From the NCBI GenBank assembly GCA_031270825.1, contig JAISXH010000036.1, positions 1 through 64,000 of the forward strand: a stretch of DNA of 64,000 nt, read 5' to 3'. Origin of the DNA: Bifidobacteriaceae bacterium (GTDB taxonomy: Bacteria; Actinomycetota; Actinomycetes; Actinomycetales; WQXJ01). The notes under the pieces are model-generated. The model had not been told where the DNA came from and did no database searches. It worked only from the letters and a program-made list of their open reading frames with translations. Below, piece by piece: positions 5,879-46,434 of the stretch. Both the position numbers and the translations under genes were made by a program. The first letter of the stretch is position 1. Every line of letters begins with the position of its first letter.

Positions 5879-6667
5879 CTACTTGAGAGCGCCGGCGGCC
5901 AGGCCGCGTTCGAACATCTTCTGCAGGCTGAGATAGACCACGATCTCCGGTATAGCCGTGATCACAGCCGCTGCCAGGACTTTGGTTTGATCCTGGGAGA
6001 ACTGGCCGATGAAGAACTGCGGCAACTGGGTGATGGTCTGAGTGGACGGCTCCTGCAGGAGCACCAGCGGGAACAAGTACTCGTTCCAGGCCTGGACAAA
6101 GGTCAAAACCACAATGGTGGCGGCGATCGGTTTCGACATCGGCAGGATCACGTAGCGGAAGACCTGGCGGGTCCTTAGTCCGTCGATCCGGGCCGCGTCG
6201 AGCAGATCGTCCGGTATGCCGTCCACAAAAGTGCGCGCGAACAGGACTGTGAAGGGGATTTGCAGGGCCGCGAGCGGCAGGATCACGGCCCAATAGGTGT
6301 TGTAGAAGCCCAGTTTCAAAGTCGTCGAAAACAAGGTCGGCAAGAGGATCGCCCCGGGCAGGGTCAGGCAGGCCAGGAGCATCCAGAAGATGATCTCTTT
6401 ACCGCGTACGTGGAGCTTTGAGAACGCGAAGGCGGCTGCCATGGTGCAGGCGTAGACCAAAGCGACCGTGGTCACCGCGATGATGATCGAGTTCCGGAAG
6501 AACAGCGGCAGTTCCGGGCGCGACAAGACGGCCTCATAGTTGCCCCAGCCTTGGCCGGCGAAGGACCCTTGGACCATCACCACGATCGGAAAGGCGTAGG
6601 GGATGGCCATCAGGGTGACGATCACCTGCAGGGTCAGGCGCTTGCCCTTGCCGCGGACCTCAAACAT
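5879..6667 (-). CDS. Carbohydrate ABC transporter permease (MalG type)
   Basis: A 262-residue inner-membrane permease of the CUT1 sugar importer family. It has about six hydrophobic segments and the ATPase-docking EAA loop DAARIDGLRTRQVFRYVILP about 75 residues from the end, plus the C-terminal FERGLAAGALK typical of MalG homologues. The ATG at 6667 overlaps the end of the MalF-type gene by eight bases. It forms a heterodimeric channel with that protein and receives sugar from the binding lipoprotein encoded two genes upstream. No ATPase gene is present in the operon. Confidence 0.93.
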   Translation of the reverse strand: MFEVRGKGKRLTLQVIVTLMAIPYAFPIVVMVQGSFAGQGWGNYEAVLSRPELPLFFRNSIIIAVTTVALVYACTMAAAFAFSKLHVRGKEIIFWMLLACLTLPGAILLPTLFSTTLKLGFYNTYWAVILPLAALQIPFTVLFARTFVDGIPDDLLDAARIDGLRTRQVFRYVILPMSKPIAATIVVLTFVQAWNEYLFPLVLLQEPSTQTITQLPQFFIGQFSQDQTKVLAAAVITAIPEIVVYLSLQKMFERGLAAGALK

Positions 6668-7721
6668 GGCTCGCCTCCGTCCGCCGGGCCAATCGCGAGA
6701 ACAGGATCGACAGTCCCACAGCTAGCACCAGCAGCACTATCGATGCGGCGGCGCCGTAGCCGACCTTGGCCAGAGTGATCGATTGGCGGTAGATGAACGT
6801 GCTCATCACCTCGGTCGAGTAGTTCGGGCCGCCGGCGGTAACCAGGAAGGGCAGGTCGAAGGTCTTCAGGGCCCCGATGATCGAGAGCATGAACAGGGCG
6901 ATGGTGGTGCCGCGTGCGCTTGGCAGGGCGATGTGCAGCAACGAGCGGAAATTGCCGGCGCCATCGAGCCGTGCGGCCTCCAAGGTCTCCGGATCGACCT
7001 GGCTGAAGGCCCCGTAGTAGAGGATGAACGTCAGGCCGGTGAACTCCCAGACTTGCAGCGCCATGATCACCAGCAGGGATGTGTTCGAATCGGCGATCCA
7101 TGGGTGCGTCAGCGCCCCTAGGCCAAGGTGCTCCAAGACCCAGTTCAGTTGGCCATGGGCGCCGAAGATCTGGCGAAAGACGGGAGCCATGATGGCCGGC
7201 GCCAAGACGACCGGGATGAAAATGATGACTTTGTACAGCGCCGCCAGACGAACTCGCGAGTGCAGCATGGCCGCGAAGGCGATCCCCAAAGTGGTTTGGA
7301 CCGAGAAAGTCACCACGAAGTACAAGCCGCAATGCGCCAGCGCCCGCCAGAAGATCTGGTCCTGAAACAGTTCGACGTAGTTGCCGGCCCCGACCGCCGT
7401 GGGCTCGGGGCTGACCCCGTCCCAGTCCAGGGTCGAAGTCCGCGCCGTGTCGATCAAGCAGAAGTAGAGCAGTCCGATCGACACCAAGACGGCGGGCGCG
7501 AGCCAGGCGTAGCCGGGCCGCTGGACCCGGTAGCTGCGGCGGCCGCCGGCACGACCGCCGCCGGCACGACTGGCGCCGCCACGACTGCCGCCACCGCCAC
7601 GACTGCCGCCACCGGCACGACTGGCGCCGCCGCCACGACTGCCGCCGCCACCACGACTGCCGCCGCCAAGACCGCCGCCGGTGTGGCGGTCGGTCGTGGC
7701 GGCGGCCCCGATTCTGGCCAT
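6660..7721 (-). CDS. Carbohydrate ABC transporter permease (MalF type)
   Basis: A 353-residue MalF-type permease with six or seven hydrophobic segments and an EAA loop (ETLEAARLDGAGNFRSLLHI). I chose the ATG at 7721, five bases after the binding-protein stop; an upstream ATG at 7754 would overlap that gene by 28 bases. The first 60 residues are odd: a cytosolic tail of Gly/Ser/Arg/Ala repeats (GGGSRGGGGSRGGGASRAGG and similar) encoded by short imperfect DNA repeats at about 7530-7685. Sugar permeases usually start with a brief basic tail, so this region looks like a recent repeat expansion. Confidence 0.92.
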   Translation of the reverse strand: MARIGAAATTDRHTGGGLGGGSRGGGGSRGGGASRAGGGSRGGGGSRGGASRAGGGRAGGRRSYRVQRPGYAWLAPAVLVSIGLLYFCLIDTARTSTLDWDGVSPEPTAVGAGNYVELFQDQIFWRALAHCGLYFVVTFSVQTTLGIAFAAMLHSRVRLAALYKVIIFIPVVLAPAIMAPVFRQIFGAHGQLNWVLEHLGLGALTHPWIADSNTSLLVIMALQVWEFTGLTFILYYGAFSQVDPETLEAARLDGAGNFRSLLHIALPSARGTTIALFMLSIIGALKTFDLPFLVTAGGPNYSTEVMSTFIYRQSITLAKVGYGAAASIVLLVLAVGLSILFSRLARRTEASHV

Positions 7722-7726
7722 GGAAC

Positions 7727-9088
7727 CTAGCCCTGCAGTGTTTCCTGCAGCCATTCCACAGCGTCGGCCGGACTTTGTTCACCAGCGGCGACTGCGGAGG
7801 CTGCCTGACCCAGCGAATCGATCACCGCCGGATCGTGTTCCATGCCGCGACCCTCCGTCGACTGCTTGCACTCGCCGATCAGTTCCTCGATCGGCTCGCG
7901 TTGAACGTCCGGGTTGACCAATCCAGCGGCCTGCCAGTCAGTGCTGACCGAGGCCAGCGCGGGGATGTTGTTGAGTTGATCGGCCACTAGCTGTTGGCCT
8001 TTGGCGGATGTGGTCAGCCAGATGGCGAAGGTTGTCGCGGCCTTCGGATTCCGAGCCTTCTTCGAGACGGCCAGACCGTAGTCGGCGGCGCCGAACCAGG
8101 CCCCTGGCGTCCCGTCTTCGTAGGCGGCGGGGAAGGCGATGGGCACAACCGTGAACGGCTCCGGGTTGGACACGCCGGCGCCTTCAATGGCGGGGACCAT
8201 GACGGCCTTGGTCGCGTACTGCGCGTACCATTGCCCCATTTGTATCATCGCGTACTGTTGCGATAGGAACATATTATTAGCATCCGGATAATGGGTGACC
8301 CCCTGCGCGCCATCTTCCATTATCCCGTCTGAGAACATTCTCTCCCAGGCGGCAAAGGCCTGGATGATTTCTGGTTGCGTCCAGTCCTCTTCACCGGCTA
8401 AGACATCTGCGAACAGGCCCGGTTTGATAGTGTCCGCAATTGCCTGAATGATGTCGCGGTTGAAAGCGGCATCTTGTGCGCCGTGGACAAAACACCCGGC
8501 GCCTTGCGCTTTGAATTCCGCGCAGACATCAACCCATTCGTCGAAGGTGGTTGGCGGTTCTAGGCCGTAGCGGTCAAACATTTCCTGGTTGATCCACACG
8601 GGGCCGGCGTAGTTCAGACCCACCGGAACCGCTTTGAGTTCGCCGTTCTCATCGATGAGCGGATCGGCGGCGGTCAACAGCAGCTTTGATTTCCAATCTG
8701 ATCCGAGGGCTTCTTCGATCGCCGCGGTCATGTCGGATCCGAACTGCGCGAACAATCCGTAGGTGACGCCTGGGGCGATCCCGAATAGATCGGGTCCTTG
8801 GTCTGACGCCAGGGCCGGGCGCATGACGGACTGATAGTCGGCCAGCCCGACTTGCTTGAATGTCACTTCGATGTCGGGATATTCCTCGTTGAAGGCGTTG
8901 ATGTAGGTGTCGGCGATGACCTGTTCGGCGGGCGTCCAGCCCCACCAGGTCACCTGGCCTTGGGTGGCCGAGTCTGTGGGCGTGTCCTTGTCGGGGTCGC
9001 CGCAGGCGGAGGCCCCGGCGACGAGCAGGCCGGCTGTCACGAGGATCGCGGCGGCGCGCCGTGCTGCTTTAGATGTGTTCTGTGGCAT
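7727..9088 (-). CDS. Extracellular sugar-binding lipoprotein of ABC importer
   Basis: A 453-residue solute-binding protein (family 1, CUT1). The N-terminus has a basic start, a hydrophobic stretch, and a lipobox-like end (LVAGASAC), so it is predicted to be lipid-anchored outside the membrane. The mature part starts GDPDKDTPTDSATQGQVTWW and keeps the usual central sequence for oligosaccharide binders. The ATG at 9088 is preceded by AAGGAG at good distance; an earlier in-frame ATG at 9115 lacks this. A segment with lower GC (about 8240-8500) is visible within the gene. It delivers the substrate to the permeases directly downstream. Confidence 0.93.
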   Translation of the reverse strand: MPQNTSKAARRAAAILVTAGLLVAGASACGDPDKDTPTDSATQGQVTWWGWTPAEQVIADTYINAFNEEYPDIEVTFKQVGLADYQSVMRPALASDQGPDLFGIAPGVTYGLFAQFGSDMTAAIEEALGSDWKSKLLLTAADPLIDENGELKAVPVGLNYAGPVWINQEMFDRYGLEPPTTFDEWVDVCAEFKAQGAGCFVHGAQDAAFNRDIIQAIADTIKPGLFADVLAGEEDWTQPEIIQAFAAWERMFSDGIMEDGAQGVTHYPDANNMFLSQQYAMIQMGQWYAQYATKAVMVPAIEGAGVSNPEPFTVVPIAFPAAYEDGTPGAWFGAADYGLAVSKKARNPKAATTFAIWLTTSAKGQQLVADQLNNIPALASVSTDWQAAGLVNPDVQREPIEELIGECKQSTEGRGMEHDPAVIDSLGQAASAVAAGEQSPADAVEWLQETLQG

Positions 9089-19489: not shown

Positions 19490-19588
19490 CGGGGATAGTC
19501 TGGGGGCGGATGGTACTGTTTAGCGGGGACACGTGTACCGACGTGGGCTAAAGGTGGTTGTGTGAGGTTTCAGCACGAGGAGGCAGAA

Positions 19589-22500
19589 ATGAACCAATTC
19601 AGGACTAGCGCGCATAGCGCGGCGTCTGGCAGGGGAACCCGCTCGGGTAAAGAGCGGCGGGCTTTGGCGCAGAGGGTCACCGCAGTGACCCTGTCGGTGG
19701 CGCTGGCGGGCACCGGCCTGGTGCTGGCCCAGCGCGCGCCCGAGGCGCACGCCGCCCGGACTCCGCACAGCCACACTTTCACGTCTGCCCAGCTCACCTA
19801 TACGCTGCCGGCCAACGCCGTCGACATCACGATCGAGGTCTGGGGCGGCGGCGGTGCCGGCGGCGGGGCGCGAGCCTGCGGTGGTTGGGACGGATGGGGG
19901 ACCTGGGGGAATCAGGCGAAAACCGGCACTGCGGCTGGTGGTGGTGGCGCTGCTGGCGCCTACACCACTTACGGGGTGCCAGCCTACGGGAAGGCGCTGC
20001 TTCTGACCGCGACCTTAGGAGACGGTGGGACCAGCAGTGTCATTTCGAACACACTAGGCGACGGGGCCACCGACACGCCGGAGCCGGGCACGGGTGCGGC
20101 AGGCGCTCTCTCAAAGGTGGTGGCGACCGCCGGAGGCACCAAAGTGGACGAGGTCTCGGCCGCCGGCGGAGATGGTGGCTACGGTGCCAGTGTGAATGCC
20201 GGCACCGCTAATCTGCAAGCGGCGGGCACCGGCGGCGCCGGCCCCGGCGCCGCCGGCGACGCGGGCAGCGCCCCAACCAACACGACAACGGCCAAGGGCG
20301 GTGCCGGCGGCGCCCCCGCCGTAAGTGGCGGTTCGGCGGCGCAGGGAATAGAGGTTACCGGCAACTCCGCGAGCGCGGGCAACTCCGGCGTTGCTCCGGG
20401 TGGTGGCGGCGCCGGCGCCAGCGCTCGGGCCACTAACTCCAACTACTGGGATAGCTGCCAGGGCAGCGCCGGCTCCCGCGGCGCCCAGGGTGGGGCGAAG
20501 GTCACTTATTACACCTATGATCAGGCGGTCACCTTCGAGCCGGCCGCCACTAAGACTTTGAAGGGTCGTGGCGCTCTGGCTGGTGAGAGCTTCAAGTTCG
20601 AGATCACGCCCACGGGCACAACCACCCCGGCGGCCGTGGCCGCCGGGAATGTGGTGTTGCCGGCGCAGCAGGCGACCTTGAGCGGACCGTTCGACGTGGA
20701 CACCCCACAGACTGTGAACTTCGGGGATATCACTTTCAAGACGCCGGGGACCTACGAGTTCCTGGCCACAGAGGTCGCCGTGAACACGGGTCCGGGGGTG
20801 TCTAAGACGGCTAGTTCTTTCGGTTTCACGGTGAAGGTCGAGGATGTTGCGGGGACGTTGACTCCCACGCCCACTTATCCCCTTGGCGGGATCGCGTTTG
20901 TGAACCAGTATGTGGCTTCGTCGGTGGATCTGGTCTTGACTGGCTTCAAGGAGCTGACCCCCGACGATTCTTTGCTCAAACCGGATGATCCGAAGGAGAA
21001 GTTCGAGTTCACGTTGGCGGGCGTGGGCGGAGCGCCGGTTCCGTCTTCTTTGACGGCGAAGAATGACGAGTCTGGCACGATTGATTTCGGCTTGGTGACT
21101 TACGAGTTGGATGATCTTGGCGGGCAGGCTTCTAAGACGTTCACCTATACGGTGACTGAGAAAGCCACTTCTATCGGCGGGGTGGACGACGACCCGAATC
21201 CGGTGAAGACTTTCACGGTCACGGTGGCGGATGATCGGACCGCGGCCGCGTTGGAGGTGACCGCGACCAGTCCGGCGAGCCCGGATCGGTTGTTCCAGTT
21301 CACTAACACTTACAGCGCCGATGAGGCGGTCTTGGCGCTGCCGCAGGCGTCGAAGACGATCGCCGGGCGTGGCTTCTTGAGCACCGATTCGTTCAGTTTC
21401 GACCTGACGACGACGTCGGCGAACCCGCCGGACGGTATTGAGAACAACACCGGGACCCAAACCGAGTCGGTCGGCGGCGCGGGGGGCGCCACCAAGACGT
21501 TCAACTTCGCGGACATCGAGTTCTCCAGGCCTGGCACCTATGTGTTCGGGATCGCGGAGGACTTGACCGGCCTTCCTGGGGCCTTGTCGCCTGATGACGG
21601 CACTTGCGCTTTCACGGTGAGCGTGACCGACGACGGCGCCGGCCAGCTAGACGCCGCGATCACTAGCACGGATCCCAGTCCCGTGGCGGAGTGTTTCGCG
21701 TTTGAGAACACTTACACTCCGGATGCGGCGGAGTTGGAAGTCAACGGCCTCAAGTCGTTGGTGTTCGACCCGTCCGACGCTCCTTTGGATTTGACGTTGG
21801 CGGATTTGGTGTCTGACTACACCTTCACGCTGACCGCGCTGGACGGCGGCCCGATGCCTGACGGTTGCGGCGCCTTGTCTTGCCCAGTGTCGATGGACGC
21901 GTCGGGGGCTATCGATTTCGGCAAGGCCGTGTTCGCCAAGAGCCTCCTGCCCACGGGCGATATGCAGCGGGATTTCGAGTATCGGGTGGTCGAGGCCGGC
22001 TCGCATGGCGGGGTGGTCAACGATCCGAATGCGGCTGTGTTCACGGTTAGTCTGACGGACGACGGTTCGGGGAAGCTGGACGCGAAAGTCGTCACGCCGG
22101 CTAGCGGCCCCACGTTCAGTTTCACCAACACCTATGCGGTCGAAGGCGTGGAGACGAATCCGATCGACGCGAACAAGACCCTCGACAACCGCGATTTCAA
22201 CGCCGACGAGTTCGATTTCGTGATCACAGCCTTGGATCAGGACACCAAGGCCGCGGTGACCGCCGGTTTGGTGGTGTTGCCGCCTCAGGTCCAGGTTTCG
22301 GGCGGCGCGGCTGGCGTGGCGGAGGCGTTCGCGTTCGACCCCATTTGGTTCGCCAGGCCGGGTGTGTACTCGTTCCGGGCGAGCGAGTTGCCTGGGCTGC
22401 CGGCCCACATCAACCCGACTGTCAATTTCCACGATTTCACCGTGACGGTCACCGACAACAAGGACGGGACTTTGTCGGCGGTCCCGGGCTATCCGAGCGG

Positions 22501-25063
22501 CGGGCTGGCTTTTGTGAACACCTATGAGACCAACCAGGTCACGCTGTCGCTCGACGGCGCGAAGGTGATCGCGCAGGAGGCCTCCTCGGGTTTGGGCTAT
22601 TCGGACATCGCCGGGGCTTGCGAGTTCACGATCTCGGGTGGCGCCGGCGGCCCGGCGATCCCGTCCGCGCCGGCGCATATGGACGGCCAGGGGAACATTT
22701 CCTTCGGGAGTGTGGTTTACACCCAGGCGATGTTGGGCGGCCAGTCGTCTGAGACCTTCACTTACACGGTGGCCGAGGACTGCGGCTCTTATGGCGGCCT
22801 GGCCCAGGATTCGGATCAGAGCTTCTCGATCACGGTCGCTGACGACGGCGCCGGCAACCTTTCCTACACGTCTAGCCCGGCTTCGGGCGCGCTGTTCGAG
22901 TTCGAGAACACGTATTCGGTCGCGCCGGTCGAGGTGCCGGTCAGCGCCACTGTGACGCTGGTGGGCCGTGACGGCTTGCCGGGCGAGAAGTTCGTGTTCA
23001 GGGTCAGCGACACGACACCGGTTCCGGCCTGGTTGCGGCGGGCTTTGCCGGCGGAGGTGGAGGTCGACGCGGGCGGCAACGGCGTTCCGGTGGTGATCCC
23101 GTTGGGGGCTATCGAGTTCCAGACGCCGGGCAGGCTTCAGTTCACCGTCGCCCAGGACACGACCGGTCTGGAGCCGGGTGTCACGGCCACCAACAACAAC
23201 CTGACGTTTGTGGTGGAAGTGGTCGACGATCATAACGGCGGCTTGGATTATTCGGTCACCTACGCTGACGGCGCCGATGGTCTGGCGTTCGTCAACACTT
23301 ATGCGACCACGGATGTGACCAGGCCGTTCGCGGGGAACAAGATTTTGCGTCTGGATCCTGACGATGGTTCGTTGGCGTTGGGCACAGGCGATCTGGCGGG
23401 GGCGTTCAGTTACGCTTTGACGGCCCCGGCGGGCACGCCGTTGCCGAGCGAGTGTGTTGTCGGCGATCCTTGCGTGGTCTCCAACGACGCCACCGGGACG
23501 GTCTCGTTCGGTTCGGTGACTTATGGTTTCGCCGATCTGGCGGGACAGACCTCGAAGGTGTTCACATACACTGTCGAGGAGTCGGGTGGTTACCCGGGTG
23601 TTGTGAATGACCCGGTTTCCTCCCGGGATGTGAGGGTCCAGGTGGAAGACAATTTGGACGGCACTCTCAAGGTGACGGTGCTGGACTTCCTGCGTGATGT
23701 GGTCGATCCTTGGTTCGCTTTCACGAACGTGTATTCGGTGGTTCCGACACGCACGGAGATCACGGCGACGGCGGTCCTGGACGGCCGGCCGATGGCGGCT
23801 GGCGAGGTGTTCCGGTACAGGTTGATAGCGCTGAACGACTTGGCGGCGCTTGTGCCGTTGCCTGGCCCGGTGACTGTCAGCGCGGCCGGCGAGGGCGAAG
23901 TGGTCGCCTTCAGCTTCGGCGAGCTCGAGTTCCCCGGCCCGGGCGAATACATTTTCGAGGCCTATCAGGAGATCGCCACCCGTCTGCCGCCCGGGGTCAG
24001 CGAGGTGGCGGGCCGGTTCGTGTTCAAGGTCGTGATCGAAGACGCCAAGGACGGGACTTTGACGGCCACGGTGGTGTATCCCGAGGGCGATATCGCTTTC
24101 GAGAACCAGTACACCGCCCAACATGTGAACCTGGATTTCAATGGCATCAAGGTGCTGGATCTGGCTGATCCGGCGTTGGGTTTGACGTTGGCGGACATCG
24201 CCGACCGGTATCGGTTCACGGTGCGGGCGGTGACTCCGGGGGCGCCGTTGCCGGCCAGTCCGACGGCCTCGAACCAGGCGTCCGGGCAGGTGTCGTTCGG
24301 CCAGGCGGTCTACACGTTGGAGGATCTGGACGGCCAGCCTTCTAAGGCTTTCACTTATGAGGTCTTAGAGTCCGGCGCGGTGCCGGGCGTGGTCAACGAT
24401 CCGGAGGCGCAGACCGGCAAGAGGTTCACGGTCACGGTGACCGATGACGGTCTGGGCCACTTGGTGCAGACCACCGAACCGTCGGCGCCGTTGTTCACGT
24501 TCGTCAACACCTATGGTGTGGCGCCGGTGTCAGTCGATGTGGTTGCGACCAAGGTGTTGGAGGGCCGGGGCTTGGAGGCTGGGGAGTTCACGTTCAGCTT
24601 GTCTCAGGGCGATCAGGTCCTTCAGAGCCTGGCCAACGCGGCCGACGGGTCGGTCGCGTTCGACCCTGTGACGTTCACCAGGCCGGGCGCTTATTCGTTG
24701 ACCGTCTCCGAGACCGCCGGGTCGGCTGATGGCGTCTACTACGACAGCCACGTCGCCGTCCTGAATTTGGTGGTCGAGGACGACGGCGAAGGCGGCCTGG
24801 TCGTGGCGCCCTATGAGGCCCAGGGCGGTCTGGTGTTCACGAACGCTTACACGCCGCCGCCAGGACCGGAGCCAGAGCCGACACCGACCCCGACACCCAC
24901 GCCTACCCCGACGCCGACGCCGTCGGCGGGCGCCTCGGGTGATCTGCCCTGGACCGGGGCCGACCCGCTCGGGCGGGTGTGGCTGGCTGTCGTGTTGGTG
25001 GCCCTAGGGGCGGTCCTGCTGCTGACCGGCCGGCGCCGGGCACTGGCCAAGAGCCGGAGCTGA
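19589..25063 (+). CDS. Giant LPXTG-anchored surface protein with alternating isopeptide (Spy0128/FctA-like) domains
   Basis: A predicted 1,824-residue secreted, wall-anchored protein. The ATG at 19589 follows GAGGAG at good spacing; an earlier in-frame GTG (19562) lacks this. A long signal peptide ends near APEAHA (about residue 46). Residues about 50-300 are a glycine-rich domain. From about 310 to 1755 there are 11 beta-sandwich repeats, each starting with a KxL/KxLxGR-type strand and ending FxNTY or FVNQY, as in pilin isopeptide domains of Gram-positive bacteria. They alternate between a 'GRxL' type (A) and a 'LTLADLADxYxF' type (B) in the order (AB)x5-A. The expected Lys is absent from A4 (SATVTLVGR) and A5 (TATAVLDGR). 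A Thr-Pro linker precedes LPWTG (residues 1786-1790), a membrane helix and a basic tail. Likely an adhesin or stalk. No sortase gene lies in the window. Confidence 0.88.
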   Translation: MNQFRTSAHSAASGRGTRSGKERRALAQRVTAVTLSVALAGTGLVLAQRAPEAHAARTPHSHTFTSAQLTYTLPANAVDITIEVWGGGGAGGGARACGGWDGWGTWGNQAKTGTAAGGGGAAGAYTTYGVPAYGKALLLTATLGDGGTSSVISNTLGDGATDTPEPGTGAAGALSKVVATAGGTKVDEVSAAGGDGGYGASVNAGTANLQAAGTGGAGPGAAGDAGSAPTNTTTAKGGAGGAPAVSGGSAAQGIEVTGNSASAGNSGVAPGGGGAGASARATNSNYWDSCQGSAGSRGAQGGAKVTYYTYDQAVTFEPAATKTLKGRGALAGESFKFEITPTGTTTPAAVAAGNVVLPAQQATLSGPFDVDTPQTVNFGDITFKTPGTYEFLATEVAVNTGPGVSKTASSFGFTVKVEDVAGTLTPTPTYPLGGIAFVNQYVASSVDLVLTGFKELTPDDSLLKPDDPKEKFEFTLAGVGGAPVPSSLTAKNDESGTIDFGLVTYELDDLGGQASKTFTYTVTEKATSIGGVDDDPNPVKTFTVTVADDRTAAALEVTATSPASPDRLFQFTNTYSADEAVLALPQASKTIAGRGFLSTDSFSFDLTTTSANPPDGIENNTGTQTESVGGAGGATKTFNFADIEFSRPGTYVFGIAEDLTGLPGALSPDDGTCAFTVSVTDDGAGQLDAAITSTDPSPVAECFAFENTYTPDAAELEVNGLKSLVFDPSDAPLDLTLADLVSDYTFTLTALDGGPMPDGCGALSCPVSMDASGAIDFGKAVFAKSLLPTGDMQRDFEYRVVEAGSHGGVVNDPNAAVFTVSLTDDGSGKLDAKVVTPASGPTFSFTNTYAVEGVETNPIDANKTLDNRDFNADEFDFVITALDQDTKAAVTAGLVVLPPQVQVSGGAAGVAEAFAFDPIWFARPGVYSFRASELPGLPAHINPTVNFHDFTVTVTDNKDGTLSAVPGYPSGGLAFVNTYETNQVTLSLDGAKVIAQEASSGLGYSDIAGACEFTISGGAGGPAIPSAPAHMDGQGNISFGSVVYTQAMLGGQSSETFTYTVAEDCGSYGGLAQDSDQSFSITVADDGAGNLSYTSSPASGALFEFENTYSVAPVEVPVSATVTLVGRDGLPGEKFVFRVSDTTPVPAWLRRALPAEVEVDAGGNGVPVVIPLGAIEFQTPGRLQFTVAQDTTGLEPGVTATNNNLTFVVEVVDDHNGGLDYSVTYADGADGLAFVNTYATTDVTRPFAGNKILRLDPDDGSLALGTGDLAGAFSYALTAPAGTPLPSECVVGDPCVVSNDATGTVSFGSVTYGFADLAGQTSKVFTYTVEESGGYPGVVNDPVSSRDVRVQVEDNLDGTLKVTVLDFLRDVVDPWFAFTNVYSVVPTRTEITATAVLDGRPMAAGEVFRYRLIALNDLAALVPLPGPVTVSAAGEGEVVAFSFGELEFPGPGEYIFEAYQEIATRLPPGVSEVAGRFVFKVVIEDAKDGTLTATVVYPEGDIAFENQYTAQHVNLDFNGIKVLDLADPALGLTLADIADRYRFTVRAVTPGAPLPASPTASNQASGQVSFGQAVYTLEDLDGQPSKAFTYEVLESGAVPGVVNDPEAQTGKRFTVTVTDDGLGHLVQTTEPSAPLFTFVNTYGVAPVSVDVVATKVLEGRGLEAGEFTFSLSQGDQVLQSLANAADGSVAFDPVTFTRPGAYSLTVSETAGSADGVYYDSHVAVLNLVVEDDGEGGLVVAPYEAQGGLVFTNAYTPPPGPEPEPTPTPTPTPTPTPTPSAGASGDLPWTGADPLGRVWLAVVLVALGAVLLLTGRRRALAKSRS

Positions 25064-39350: not shown

Positions 39351-40430
39351 CTAAACGTTGGAGATGCTGGTTGGCGCCGGTGCTGGTGCTGGTGTCGGCG
39401 GCGCTGGCGGCGGTCCTGAGCTGTCCCTGACCACCAGCCGACACGGCAGCAACACCGATGCCGGCTCGCGTTCCAGGTCGGGCGGCGTCTGCAGGGCCTC
39501 GATCAGCAGGCGGGCGCCCATCTGGCCCAGTTCGATCGCCTGCGGCTCAAGGGTCGTCAACTTGGGGCGGAACATCTCGGTGACGCGGGTCGAGGAGGCG
39601 ATCGACACGACCGAGAAGTCGCGCGGCACGGACGCGCCGATGCGTTCTATGGCGCTGAGGACCCCGACGGTGGCGCGGTCGTTCATAATGGCGATGCCGG
39701 TCAGGTCGGGGGCGGTCTCCAGCAGTTCGCGGAAGGCGGCTTCTCCAGATTCGGAGTCCTCGCCGCAGGGGCGCTCCAGGTAGGCGACCGAGAACTCTTC
39801 CGCGGCCCGTCTCAAGGCCGCCGCCGCCCGCACTGACGGGCCATAGGCGGTCGACATCTCAGAGGCCGAGTGGTTCAGGAAAGCGATCTTGCGGTGGCCG
39901 AGTTTGGCCAGGTGCTCGACGGCGTCTCTGCCGGTCTGGTCGAAGTCGATGTCGGCGCAGTCGATCCCGTCCGGGTCCCGCGGCCGGCCGATCATCGAGA
40001 AGGGTATGCCGGCGTTGCGCAGCAGGGGGATGCGTTCGTCATCCAAGCGCACCTCCATCAGGATGGCGCCGGCGATCAATCCGCCTTTGTTCAGCGCCTC
40101 GACCTGGCCGGCCGTGTTGGAGTTGGTCACCGACAGGACCAGTTGGTGGCCTAGCTCCTTGGCGGCCTGGGCGGCCCCGGTGGCGAACTCCATCTCGGTG
40201 AAGCCGATTCCGCGCTGGGATTCGGGCAGCAGCAGGGCCACCACGCGCGACCGCCGGCTGGCCAGGCCGCGGGCCAATTCGTTGGGTTTGTAACCGAGTT
40301 CGGCGATGGCCCGAAGAATGCGTTTGCGGGTCGACGGGGATATGGTGCGTTGACCGCTGAGGGCGTAGGAGACGGTGCTGGGAGCCACATTGGCTCTTCT
40401 GGCGACGTCGATCATCCTGGGGTTGGCCAC
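39351..40430 (-). CDS. LacI-family transcriptional repressor
   Basis: A 359-residue repressor. The N-terminal helix-turn-helix is [20 protein letters not shown], followed by the hinge [15 protein letters not shown] and a periplasmic-binding-protein-like sensor ([26 protein letters not shown]-like). The GTG at 40430 follows GGAAAGGAAAG; the frame is open to 40481 but that start adds a non-conserved stretch. The C-terminal 20 residues are Pro/Ala-rich. It is read divergently from the GH3 gene, and a 14-bp operator-type palindrome sits between them. It probably controls the GH3-ABC-GH31 locus in response to a sugar. Confidence 0.92.
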
Positions 40431-40587
40431 CGGCTTTCCTTTCCATTCGACTGCTTGCAGCTTACGCCGGGTCCCTGTCATTTCGCCGACACCAGCCTCC
40501 GCCGGGGCGGCCCGGGCCTCAGTCCGCGCCGAACCCCCATGTCAGCCGTTCGCCTTCAGTGTCCACGTTGCAGTTGGGCCACAGCTA

Positions 40588-40618
40588 TTGACGGGGGGCC
40601 GACCGGGTGCGGTAGTAT
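40588..40618 (+). promoter_or_regulatory. Promoter of the GH3 sugar locus
   Basis: TTGACG (40588-40593) and TAGTAT (40613-40618) are separated by 19 bases, slightly longer than ideal. The predicted start falls within the operator palindrome at 40618-40631, so repressor binding would occlude initiation. Confidence 0.6.
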
Positions 40619-40631
40619 CGAAGCGCTTCGA
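40618..40631. promoter_or_regulatory. LacI-type operator TCGAAGCGCTTCGA
   Basis: A perfect 14-bp palindrome with a central CG, placed over the predicted start site of the GH3 transcript and 187 bases upstream of the divergent lacI-type gene. It shares the inner GAAGCGCTTC with the site at 11802. Confidence 0.8.
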
Positions 40632-40722
40632 GTCCCGCGGCGGGGGGGTGTCGGCTCGCTCAAATTCATCGGCAGTGTTGCCGCAACGGCCAAGCTGCCG
40701 CAACCGAAGGGAATCAAAGGAG

Positions 40723-43700
40723 ATGCACCAAACCGGTCGGCTGAGTGCCGCCAAGAAAGTTGTGGCGGCCACGGTAGCCGCGACAGTGGTTGCTTTTGGG
40801 TTGGTTACCACCCAAGATAATCAGGCAGTGGCTGCGCCCGAGGACATTACCGGCGTCGCTTACCCGTTCCAAGACACCTCGCTCAGCGACGATGCACGGG
40901 TTCAGGATTTGATTTCGCGCCTCACCGTGGACGAGAAGGTTGGCCTGCTGCACCAGTTCAGCGCCGCCATCATCCGCTTGGGCGTGCCCCAGTTCAGGAC
41001 CGGCACCGAAGGGTTGCACGGCCTGTCATGGCTCGGCTACGCGACGGTGTTCCCGCAGAACACCGGCATCGCTATGACCTGGAACCCCGAACTGGCCGAG
41101 AAGATCGGCGATGTCGTGGGCTCTGAGGCGAGGGCCTATAACTCGGTCGACGCCCGCTTCAACGGGATCGACATCTGGGCCCCGGTGGTGGACCTGGCCC
41201 GCGACCCGAGGGCCGGCCGGGCCTCCGAGTCCATGGGCGAGGACGCCTTCCTGGCGGGCACCATTTCCTCTTCCATGGCCGCTGGCCTGCAGGGCGGCGA
41301 CAATGGCTACTACCAGGCGATTCCGACCCTGAAGCACTTCGCCGCCTACGGGCAGGAGGCCAACCGCGCCGGCTATTCGGCCAACGCCGGTCCCCGTAAC
41401 CTGTACGAATACTATTTCCGGGCCTTCAGCCGGGGCATCGCCGAGGGCAACGTCAACGGCATCATGACGGCGTACAACCTGGTCAACGGCAAACCCACGA
41501 TGGTCATGCCGGAAGTCATGAGCCAGCTCTACGGCGAATGGGTGGACGGCGGATACGGCAGCGGCGCGTTCTTCGCGGTGACGGATGCCGGGTCTCCCGG
41601 GAACCTGTCAGGCTCGAACGCCTATTACCCGGCTAGCACGCTGGGCCAATCGGCTTCGATGGCTGATTCGCTCAAGAACGGCATCGCCGTGATGACTCCC
41701 TCCGACACGGACACTCCTACCACCCGGCGCTGGTTCTATGAGGCGCTGGCCCGGGGAATGATCACCGAGGCGGACATCGACCAGGCCATCTACGGCATCT
41801 TGCTGGTTCGTTTGCATGCTGGCGACTTGGACGCGGACGCCACCGACAACCCTTACAAGCAGCTCAACAAGATCAATGCGCTCGACACCCAGGCCAACCG
41901 CGAGGTCGCCGCTCAGGCCGCGAAAGAGCAGGTCGTGTTGCTCAAGAATGATGGCGGCATTCTGCCCTTGTCGAAGTCGGCTGATGTCGCCTTGGTCGGC
42001 CCCTTGGGAGATGAGAACTCGACCGACTTCTACGCTGGCACCTACCCCTACACCACCCTGATCAAGGACGAGGTGGCGCGGAAGGTGGCCGCCAGCGGTT
42101 CGCTTGACTTCAGCCGCGGAGTCGATCTGGTGGCCCTCCAAGTCACCAACGGCACCGGCAATCCGGACGGCAAGTTCCTGGTCACCGGGGCCACGCCGGC
42201 CGATCCGTTGACCGGCACGGGCACATCGGCAAGCGATGCCAAGGCCCAGTTCTACCTCTACGACTACGGCTACAACAACATGCTGCTGCGTTCGGCCGAC
42301 ACCGATCGATATCTGGTCGCGCGGGGCTCCGGCAACACCGTCATAGCCAACGCCGACCCGCCCGGCTACGAAGGCGCCAACCGGGCCAGCCAGCAGTGGT
42401 CCACCGATCAAAACCTGGGCATTGTCCAGCGGGCCGGCTCCGTCGTCTCGTTGCGCTTCGCCAAGGGCACCTCGATCGTCTCCCCGACCGCCGCCTCCAA
42501 CGTCTACGTCAACCAGAATTCGCCCTACAACGTGGTCCACAACGGCAACAACTCCAGCGTCAACCGGCAGTTCGAGCTGATCACGGTCCAGGACGGGGTA
42601 GACGATGCCGTCGCCAAGGCCACCGGGGCCGATGTCGCCGTTGTCGCCGTGGGCGACCAGCCGCACATGACCTCGCGTGAGACCTACGACCGGCAGTCGA
42701 CTGCGCCGGACATCAAGCTGGCGCCCGCGCAGGAAGAACTGATCGACGCCGTCGCCACCGCCAACCCGAACACGGTGGTCGTGATAGTCGGCAGTTACCC
42801 GTTCGACGTCTCGGCCGTCCAGGCCAACCCCAACGTCAAGGGGATCGTGTACACCAGCCACGCCGGTCAAGAACTCGGCAACGCCGTCGCGGACGTCCTG
42901 TTCGGGGACTATGCTCCGGCCGGCCGGCTGAACCAGACCTGGTATGCGGGCCTGGGCGACCTCCCACCGATCACCGACTACGACATCATCAAGGGCAACC
43001 GCACCTATCAGTACTACGACGGCGCCCCGATTTACCCGTTCGGCTACGGCCTGACCTATACGACCTTCGCCTATTCGGGCGTGTCGTTGAATCCGGCCTC
43101 GGTCCCGAACGCCAACCTCAGCGCGACGGTGCCGGTCTCCGTGACCGTCTCGAACACCGGCACGCGGGCCAGCGACGAGGTGGTACAGCTCTACTCGTCG
43201 TTCAACGGCGCCGGGTCCTCGCGGGTCGAGTATCCCAACCGGACGCTGATCGGCTACAAGCGGGTCAACGTCGGCGCGGGCGCCACAGCCCAAGTCACCA
43301 TCAACGTGTCGCTGAGCGATTTGGCGATCTGGGATGCGGCTGGTCAACGGTATGCCCTCGAACCAGGCACGTACACCATCGCGGCGGCCCGGTCCTCGGC
43401 GACCGCTGACCAGCTGGCCACGGCCACGCTGACGGTCACCGGCCCTGGACTGGCGGCTCGTGACTTGAGCACGGCCCAGTCGGCGTACAACTTCGACGAC
43501 TACTCGTTCACCACGGTGACGGCCACCGGCACCCAGGCGGATGTGATCCCGAGCTCGGTCAATGAGAACGACACTTACGGCATCAACTTCCGCGCCACCA
43601 CCGGCGGCTGGGTCAAGTACGCCGATGTCAACTTCGGATCGCAGACGGGCTTCGCCATCCGGGCGTCTAACTCGAACGCCGTTCCGGTTGCGGTCGAGGT

Positions 43701-46434
43701 TTGGCGCGACGGCCCTGACGCCGGCTCCGGCGGAACCCCGATGGGAATCGTCAACGTCCCGCCGACGGGACATCTGCAGACCTTCGTGAGCATTGGGACC
43801 ACGCTGGCCGCGGTTCCCAGCGGGACGGCCGATCTCTACTTGGTCAGCCCGTCCAGCGGCGTGTCGGTGTCTTGGCTGCGCCTTGGCGCCTTGGCCCAGG
43901 CGACCAATGCCGATGTGACGGTCACCACCAACCACTACAACACCAACCTGACCACCTCCCTGACCCGGTACCACGTCGAGGTTCCGGCCACGATCGAGCA
44001 GCGGTCCGGCAACTTGGTGGTTGAAGCCGAAATCAACGCTCCCCGCGTGGTGGCCGGCGCGGTCACCTGGTCGGTGACAGATTTGTTGGGCGCTCCGACG
44101 ACAGCGGCCACCATCAGCGCCACTGGACAGCTCACGGCCGCCGGGACAACCGACGGATGGGTGCGGGTGACCGCCACCTACCCGACCGCTTCCGGCCAGG
44201 CGTCTGGTTCGATCGATGTGGAATTGAAGAATCAGACGGTCGACGCGGGCACCAACGCGGAGGCGATCATCATTCGCAGCGGCTGGGATTCGCGGCCGTC
44301 GGATATCTCGTGGGGGCCGAACCAGTTCGACACCTTCGGCGCCATACACCAATACAAGGGCGAGCTGCTGCTCAGCGCCGTCACCTACCCGTTCCCAAAC
44401 AGCGCGGCCCGTCCGGTCACGTTCACGGTGACGAACCAGTACGGCCAGCCCACCAATCTGGCAGAGATCGTCGCTGGGTCCGAGGCGGCAGGATTCGTCG
44501 AGGGTCAGACCTCTGGGAACAACAACCGGGCCTACAACGCCACCTTGCGGGCGACTGGCAACGGCGACGGCGAGGTCTATGTGACGGCCACAACCAGCAA
44601 CAACCTCTCCTACACCACCCGGATCGTCATTCAAGGCCAAGGCATTCGCTCGGCCTACCCGACGCGCTACGAGGCCGAATTGTTTGACTCGGCTGGGAAC
44701 GTCGACGGTGTGACACCGGCCAACCTGCGGGCCGACAATGTCCACGGTGACGATGCCGGTCTGCAGCTCAACCGCATCCGCAACGGCGATTACGCGGTCT
44801 ACAACCGGTTCTACATGGGGGAGGCTCAGGCGGTCGAAATGACGCTGCGCTATATGAAGGCCTCCACCGAACCGGCCAAGATCACGGTCATGGCAGACGA
44901 TCCGGTGACAGGGACCAAGCTCGGCGAAGTCGAACTGGCGGGCGACCTGGACCTGACAGTGGCGGCGGATTATCAGAATCCGGTCTATCACTGGCAGGAT
45001 GTCACCTTCGCCTTGACGCCGCTGGCCGGAGTCCACGACCTCTACCTGGTATTCGAGGTGTCGGCGGCGATTCCGAACACCGACATCTCCAGCGTCTATG
45101 GCGCTGTCGCCGGCTGGCTCGACCTGGGCATCAACTGGTTCGCGATCGAGGGCATTCAGCAGAGCGCTCCGCAGGGAACGGCCCAAGATGTGAAGGTCGG
45201 CGAGGCGGACGGCAACGGCACGGTCAAGCAAGTGGTGCTCGATGCCGCGCCGGTGGCGGACCCGGCCATCGCGACCGCGTCGATCGATCTGGCCGCCACC
45301 CAAATCGGCGCCATCACCTCGGCTGACGGCGATGTCTCGGCCACCGAAGCGGTGGTGCTGCCCGATGGCACAGTGCGCTTCTCGGGCGATGTTCCGGGCG
45401 TCTACGAGATTCCGGTGACCTACTACGACAACCTGGGCAAGAGCGTGGTGGTGACGCATGTCGTCACCATTCAGGCCATGCCCGCGGGAGTCGGCGGCCA
45501 GGCCCGGATCGCCGAAGACGGCTCGCACGCCTTCGGTGCCCCGGCCGGGATCGGCGCCGCGACCGGTGCTCTGTCCACGCCGCCAGCCGATGGCGCCGTG
45601 GTGATCGGGCCAAGTGGGGCTGTGGAGTTCGACGCCGATGGCGTCGCGCCCGGCGCCTACGAGTTCGACGTCACATTCACCGACGACCTCGGCCAATCGG
45701 TGGTGGTCTCGTATGAAGTCGTCGTCCAGGCCCGGCCCACCGCCGGCGGCGGATCGGCAACGGTCGATGAAGGTGGCGAGCACACCTTCCAGGTCGCCAT
45801 CGGCACCACCGGGAGCATCGTGGCTGGCACCGCCGCGGACGTCCCGGCCGGCGCGACGGTCACGGTCGGCCTGGACGGCACGGTGGAGTTCGATGCCGGC
45901 GCCGCCGCGCCGGGGACCTACCAGTTCTCCGTGACCTGGCGAGACAACCTGGGCCAGACCGCCACCAGCGAATTCACGGTAATCATCGCCGGAGAGCCCG
46001 GCGAACCCGGCGAACCCGGCGAACCTGGCGAACCTGGGGAGCCGGGTGAACCCGGTGAGCCGGGAGAACCTGGTGAGCCCGGAGAACCTGGCGAGCCTGG
46101 TGAACCTGGGGAGCCGGGTGAACCCGGGGAGCCCGGAGAGCCGGGCGAGCCTGGTGAACCTGGGGAGCCTGGAGAACCTGGGGAGCCCGGAGAGCCGGGG
46201 CCAATTGGACCAATCGGACCAATTGGACCGACTGGGCCGGCTGGGCCGGCCGGACCGGCTGGGCCGGCCGGAGGAGCGGGCGGAACGGGAGTATCGCCTG
46301 ACGATGAGGGACAGCTGCCCTTCACCGGCACCTCAGCCCTGCCAACTGCCGCGCTGGCCGCCTTGCTGATGCTGGTCGGCGGGTTCGCCGCAGTCGCCTC
46401 GCGCCGTCGGCGGCGCAGCGAGGGGGTCGGCTGA
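40723..46434 (+). CDS. Wall-anchored GH3 glycosidase with CBM6-like, Ig-like and collagen-like regions
   Basis: A 1,903-residue secreted multidomain enzyme. A Sec signal (about 1-39) is followed by the GH3 catalytic domain: KHFAAYG, then the probable nucleophile Asp288 in FAVTDAGS. A non-standard domain (about 480-623) interrupts the GH3 C-terminal half; an Fn3-like domain lies near 788-905. Further on are two CBM6-like parts (about 910-1060 and 1313-1476), a Big2-like part, and three Ig-like repeats. Residues 1757-1849 are collagen-like: 23 Gly-Glu-Pro then eight Gly-Pro-X triplets. LPFTG (1865-1869), a membrane helix and a basic tail complete a sortase anchor. The chosen ATG gives a good signal peptide, although AAAGGAG sits unusually close to it. 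It is probably a beta-glucosidase or beta-xylosidase displayed on the wall. Confidence 0.9.

Follow-up and report, generated by a model that had tools for sequence, protein, structure and literature searches.

An isopeptide bond between Lys and Asn requires the two residues and the acid, and in a locked domain of the Spy0128 type it ties the first strand to the last and blocks extension. The stalk described here has in common with the pilin Spy0128/FctA (PF12892; 3b2m) its sequence family, its predicted fold, and Lys, Glu, and Asn in nine of its domains; whereas Spy0128 is a two-domain polymerised pilin, ours would be a monomeric stalk of eleven domains with its own tip and anchor, in which two domains are without the Lys and the Glu. 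The pilin FctB has no isopeptide bond (PMC7900414), and Kwon et al. (PMC5311914) equated its Asn13, Gln67, and Pro117 with Spy0128 Lys36, Glu117, and Asn168. Introduction of K, E, and N into FctB was insufficient; a fourth change, V26F, was required for the bond, and in Spy0128 Phe54 sandwiches the Lys (Kwon et al., PMC5311914). Gln at the Glu site of a bond-less domain is, then, already known in one protein, FctB. Mobiluncus has giant adhesins of the TIE type (PMC10619420) which, together with tandem isopeptide stalks (PMC12617251), resemble the protein considered here in being LPXTG-anchored, grown by duplication of domains, and mostly isopeptide-linked, with some disulfides. Every domain of the Mobiluncus adhesins is reported to be cross-linked (PMC10619420); in contrast, the present protein has two domains without cross-link residues, and a glycine-rich tip.

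The window, by which we mean the whole 64,000-nucleotide stretch of Bifidobacteriaceae DNA that was analysed, contains an open frame on the forward strand from 19562 to 25063. The likely start is the ATG at 19589, with AGGAGG a few bases upstream, and the stop is at 25063, giving a protein of 1824 aa. Its parts are, in order, a signal peptide region (19589 to 19753) with the hydrophobic stretch VTAVTLSVALAGTGLVLA, the glycine-rich tip (19754 to 20506), the eleven FctA domains, and a putative sortase anchor (24857 to 25063) made up of a Pro/Thr linker, LPWTG (24944 to 24958), a hydrophobic, presumably transmembrane, helix, and a basic tail. The signal peptide was read by eye; none of the Pfam anchor profiles scored above cut-off against the protein, and the anchor call likewise rests on reading the sequence. 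The whole protein matched the FctA profile PF12892 with E=1.2e-148 and 488 bits (cut-off 22.1) in 11 stretches, and TIGR03786 with E=6.7e-70 in 10 stretches. When the genome was scanned with PF12892, 10 stretches were individually above the curated cut-off, including the domains called A4 (46.7 bits) and A5 (33.8 bits) below, and this was the sole FctA gene detected in its genome by that profile search. Two sortases are present in the genome, both on other contigs. With a signal peptide, a tip, a repeat stalk, and an LPXTG-type motif, the product is, by its predicted architecture, a sortase-anchored fibrillar adhesin.

The initial annotation had called the glycine-rich tip unusual. The tip resembled Gly_rich_2 (PF21722) over nearly the length of the profile (4 to 226 of 226) and is possibly Gly_rich_2-like, but the match, at E=0.04 and 14.4 bits, fell below the cut-off of 24.3. 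A single-sequence AF2 run gave a pLDDT of 34, unusable as a fold prediction; no thioester domain was detected in the tip, no Gly_rich_2 match was found in 18 genomes of the family, and no homologue of the tip was found among the FctA loci collected.

The FctA domains are all on the forward strand and range in length from 111 to 144 aa, and the first ten alternate between two types, A and B. Nine of the eleven contain the complete triad, with AAG as the codon of the Lys in strand 1, GAG as that of the catalytic Glu in the E-box, and AAC as that of the Asn in the last strand. These are A1 (20507 to 20920; Lys, Glu, and Asn codons at 20552, 20771, and 20903), B1 (20921 to 21322; 20948, 21158, and 21305), A2 (21323 to 21724; 21353, 21557, and 21707), B2 (21725 to 22144; 21752, 21992, and 22127), A3 (22145 to 22534; 22175, 22385, and 22517), B3 (22535 to 22924; 22562, 22775, and 22907), B4 (23312 to 23743; 23339, 23579, and 23726), B5 (24122 to 24523; 24149, 24368, and 24506), and the last and shorter domain, A6 (24524 to 24856; 24551, 24710, and 24842). 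The two remaining domains lie on either side of B4. A4 (22925 to 23311) reads Val (GTG, 22952), Gln (CAG, 23153), and Asn (AAC, 23294), and A5 (23744 to 24121) reads Ala (GCG, 23771), Gln (CAG, 23966), and Asn (AAC, 24104), so that the Asn codon AAC is retained in all eleven domains; in A5 the Phe that sandwiches the Lys is also changed, to Tyr. The codons thus bear out the earlier statement that nine domains have the Lys, whereas A4 has Val and A5 has Ala in its place. The change of Glu to Gln that is coupled to the Lys loss in both domains is the point which that annotation missed.

The Glu losses fall in exactly the two of eleven domains that lost Lys, a coincidence expected once in 55 if the losses were placed at random. 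Each of the two domains is at least three nucleotide changes away from the Lys and Glu codons of its siblings. A4 and A5 share 34% identity, and both resemble A1 more than they do one another, so a single common loss is not required. Two cysteines each were found in A2, B2, B3, and B4 and none in the other seven domains; A4 and A5, having neither the triad nor Cys, are therefore the only domains without cross-link residues. From the known chemistry we infer that no Lys-Asn bond forms in A4 or A5, which should accordingly be domains of FctA fold that do not form isopeptides. The Cys pairs, spread over 21323 to 23743, suggest extra disulfide locks in some of the bonded domains only.

Pairwise identities were 25 to 41% among A domains, 33 to 45% among B domains, and 17 to 29% between A and B. 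In a FastTree phylogeny of 167 domains, B1 to B5 and the B5 of an orthologue from the same genus formed a clade of exactly six (support 0.896), and A1 to A5 clustered with one outside domain (0.777). In a second tree the same six B domains fell within a starred 9-row group that included three outside domains, and A1 to A5 within a group supported at 90 that was joined by two domains of genome G012. With the B1 to B5 clade and the A1 to A5 group in these trees, the proposal that a two-domain unit was duplicated held up, and duplication of such a unit would be the simplest reading of how the stalk grew. B-like domains are also present in stalks of Eggerthellaceae and Oscillospiraceae; the B type therefore extends beyond this gene. 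The proposed layout of (AB)x5-A stood less completely: the alternation is real for domains 1 to 10, by both identities and trees, but the last domain, of 111 aa, was placed outside A1 to A5 in both trees. An AU test nevertheless did not reject a single clade of A1 to A6 (p 0.56), and the safer wording is '(AB)x5 plus one more'.

A core score was computed over the conserved columns minus the triad. A4 lay at the 25th and A5 at the 27th percentile of bonded domains; the bonded siblings ranged from the 11th to the 43rd. AF2 was run on two-domain units, and the A4-B4 model had a mean pLDDT of 87. The A4 model found its best match (VIA-align) in FctB, 3klq, with Z 12.4 and an rmsd of 2.5 over 112 residues, and the two-domain A4-B4 model matched Spy0128, 3b2m, with Z 11.2. 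FctB (3klq, 8k6t) and A4 would thus have the same fold, Gln at the Glu position (Gln67 in FctB), and, by prediction for A4, no bond; they differ in that FctB is a single-domain pilus base with Asn13 and Pro117 for Lys and Asn, whereas A4 and A5 keep the Asn and lie inside a stalk. A4 and A5 may work like FctB in lacking the bond; direct kinship is not implied. The N-domain of FimP, in which the bond is absent though all residues are kept (PMC3485203), is a different case from A4 and A5.

FctA domains were gathered at four ranks, genus, family, order, and phylum, together with 28 named loci, some of them from Bacillota, and were aligned and curated. The named-locus scan that took in Bacillota used four Bifidobacterium domains as query; a scan of genome contigs with the adhesin protein as query found no relative. 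The census comprised 465 domains with a readable triad, in 381 clusters at 60% identity, and 439 of the 465 domains were Lys/Glu/Asn. By cluster, 363 were Lys/Glu, 0 were Lys/Gln, 2 had Glu without Lys, and 9 had Gln without Lys (Fisher 1.5e-16; as the sequences are not independent and the trees weakly resolved, the value denotes a strong association and not a count of events). On the curated tree the Lys state changed 9 times and the Glu state 8 times, with only 2 independent pairs on well-supported (starred) branches. In the nine clusters with Gln and no Lys, the residue in the place of Lys was Val, Ala, Leu, Thr, or Arg, and Asn was retained. Glu had been replaced by Gln in 9 of the 9 clusters that lost Lys and Glu and kept Asn, Gln being one of seven non-stop outcomes of a single-base change from GAG. 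Where Asn was lost, Glu had become Asn or Cys, and in two further domains Leu. The Lys-less domains that kept Glu, L143 d6 and L089, are poorly aligned in the first strand, and the Lys position in domains with a strand-1 insert was reassigned by eye from the sequences, which is a judgement. Apparent Lys/Gln or Glu/Gln domains at L112, L114, and L116 were rejected, their sequence, either GVKVQIQGR or GVEVRIQGR, having Val there, as was the automatic assignment of Lys in domain 2 of L121, where the site reads Leu.

The Phe site is relaxed as well: the alignment column that, in our reading, would correspond to Spy0128 Phe54 had F in 229 of 244 bonded domains as against 5 of 9 unlocked clusters (Fisher 0.002). 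The positions of unlocked domains varied, from the first FctA domain in Bifidobacterium stalks to the last two of three in L121, and unlocked single FctA domains also occurred in choline-binding proteins. The census provides a simple rule by which locked FctA domains can be told from unlocked ones in sequence, namely that Lys and Glu are lost jointly, with Glu becoming Gln; a search of the literature found no report of such a family-wide rule, which is no proof of novelty.

The same-genus orthologue, on contig L031 of another species (G007), starts inside A5 and continues through B5, A6, and LPFTG; the rest of it is absent from the G007 assembly. Its B5 was 50% identical to B5 here and 40% identical to B4, and reads Thr/Gln/Asn, whereas B5 here is Lys/Glu/Asn. 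The co-loss therefore arose elsewhere in the stalk, and its placement is not conserved, which argues that unlocking may be tolerated or tuned and is not fixed at A4 and A5.

We think it likely that A4 and A5 represent a recurrent bond-free state of the FctA domain, in which loss of the buried Lys is accompanied by neutralisation of Glu to Gln. The basis for this is the observed joint loss of the residues, its recurrence across the family, and the preserved conservation of the core. The nine other domains would be capable of an internal Lys-Asn isopeptide bond; in A4 and A5 a small apolar residue would have taken the place of the buried Lys, and Gln, a neutral isostere, that of the buried Glu with which the Lys was paired, with the Asn staying. 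Lys and Glu would make a buried charged pair of which one member is lost and the other neutralised, Gln having the closest neutral shape. Once the Lys was gone, a Glu left uncompensated among apolar core residues would be penalised, leading to Gln, which could still hydrogen-bond, perhaps with the retained Asn. FctB keeps the Gln without the Asn (Pro117), so such a Gln-Asn contact would not be general. Domains of this kind would be folded, yet force would unfold them, and proteases cleave them, more easily than their locked neighbours.

The initial annotation had proposed that A4 and A5 were either weak links by design or domains in decay. As selected weak links they would act as shock absorbers that can stretch, or as points of release sensitive to protease, within a stalk that is otherwise inextensible, on either side of B4, which can be locked in two ways. 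Their conserved cores, by which they should fold, and their being the only domains with neither triad nor Cys pair, on either side of a B4 that has both, are consistent with this; but the unlocked domain of the orthologue is B5, which is intact here, and the unlocked domains of Bifidobacterium, L121, and the choline-binding proteins keep no constant place. Weak links are thus a possible function, and one that we think rather unlikely, the placement not being conserved. We are equally doubtful of a stronger form of our own reading, in which the Lys-less/Gln/Asn domain would be a distinct selected bond-free state, installed by bacteria at chosen places in otherwise locked stalks so as to adjust their extensibility or their release by protease, a Gln-Asn hydrogen bond replacing the covalent clasp. 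Decay, in which domains lose function neutrally and Lys is hit first, might be tolerated in a stalk with nine locked domains, and the differing placement in the two orthologues would fit it. It does not account for the identical Glu to Gln outcome in all 9 clusters, for core conservation in A4 and A5 equal to that of their locked siblings, for the absence of any frameshift or stop in either, or for triad codons that have changed by three or more bases in each domain with the Asn left untouched; with the core conserved and the Lys-less/Gln/Asn set recurring across clusters, we regard it as quite improbable. Another cross-link in A4 and A5, such as a bond to a Lys from another strand or one involving the Gln, seems to us scarcely credible. 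Both Gln and Asn are retained, and Thr-Gln ester bonds are described in other adhesin domains (PMC10619420), a precedent for such a bond; but the sole Lys of A4 appears to lie at the start of strand 2, off the buried site, those of A5 would occupy one loop and one strand position exposed by alternation (where locked domains have Thr or Lys), the Val and the Ala are inert, and there is no Cys in either domain. On the bond-free reading that we prefer, locked and unlocked siblings stand side by side in one natural protein, which makes the contribution of the isopeptide bond to an adhesin stalk directly testable.

Several other proteins were noted during this work. L096 (1576 to 3552, reverse strand) and L097 (2525 to 3925, forward strand) encode proteins that have choline-binding repeats and a single FctA domain each, of the Val/Gln/Asn kind, and the protein of L096 has in addition a YkuD L,D-transpeptidase domain. 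In the last FctA domain of L091, L092, and L094, Lys and Glu are kept and a Glu is aligned at the Asn position, possibly by misalignment or as a different acceptor. In a related genus, L029 (7569 to 8504, forward strand), near another FctA gene, encodes a small LPFTG protein with one FctA-like domain without the triad (Gln/Asn/His), a candidate FctB-like basal pilin. In a congeneric species, a single ORF of L030 (4272 to 6245, reverse strand) contains a class B sortase (TIGR03064, E=3e-43), after which come two bond-less FctA domains and an LPFTG anchor, and adjoins a pilin-like ORF (6395 to 7849, reverse strand); it is apparently a sortase fused to a substrate resembling a basal pilin, or possibly an assembly artefact. 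Elsewhere in the window, positions 40375 to 46434 of the forward strand encode a 2019-aa LPXTG protein in which a GH3 glycosidase, an Fn3-like domain, and CBM6 modules are combined with collagen-like repeats ahead of the anchor; it is by prediction a wall-anchored enzyme that cuts sugars and contains a collagen-like stretch.
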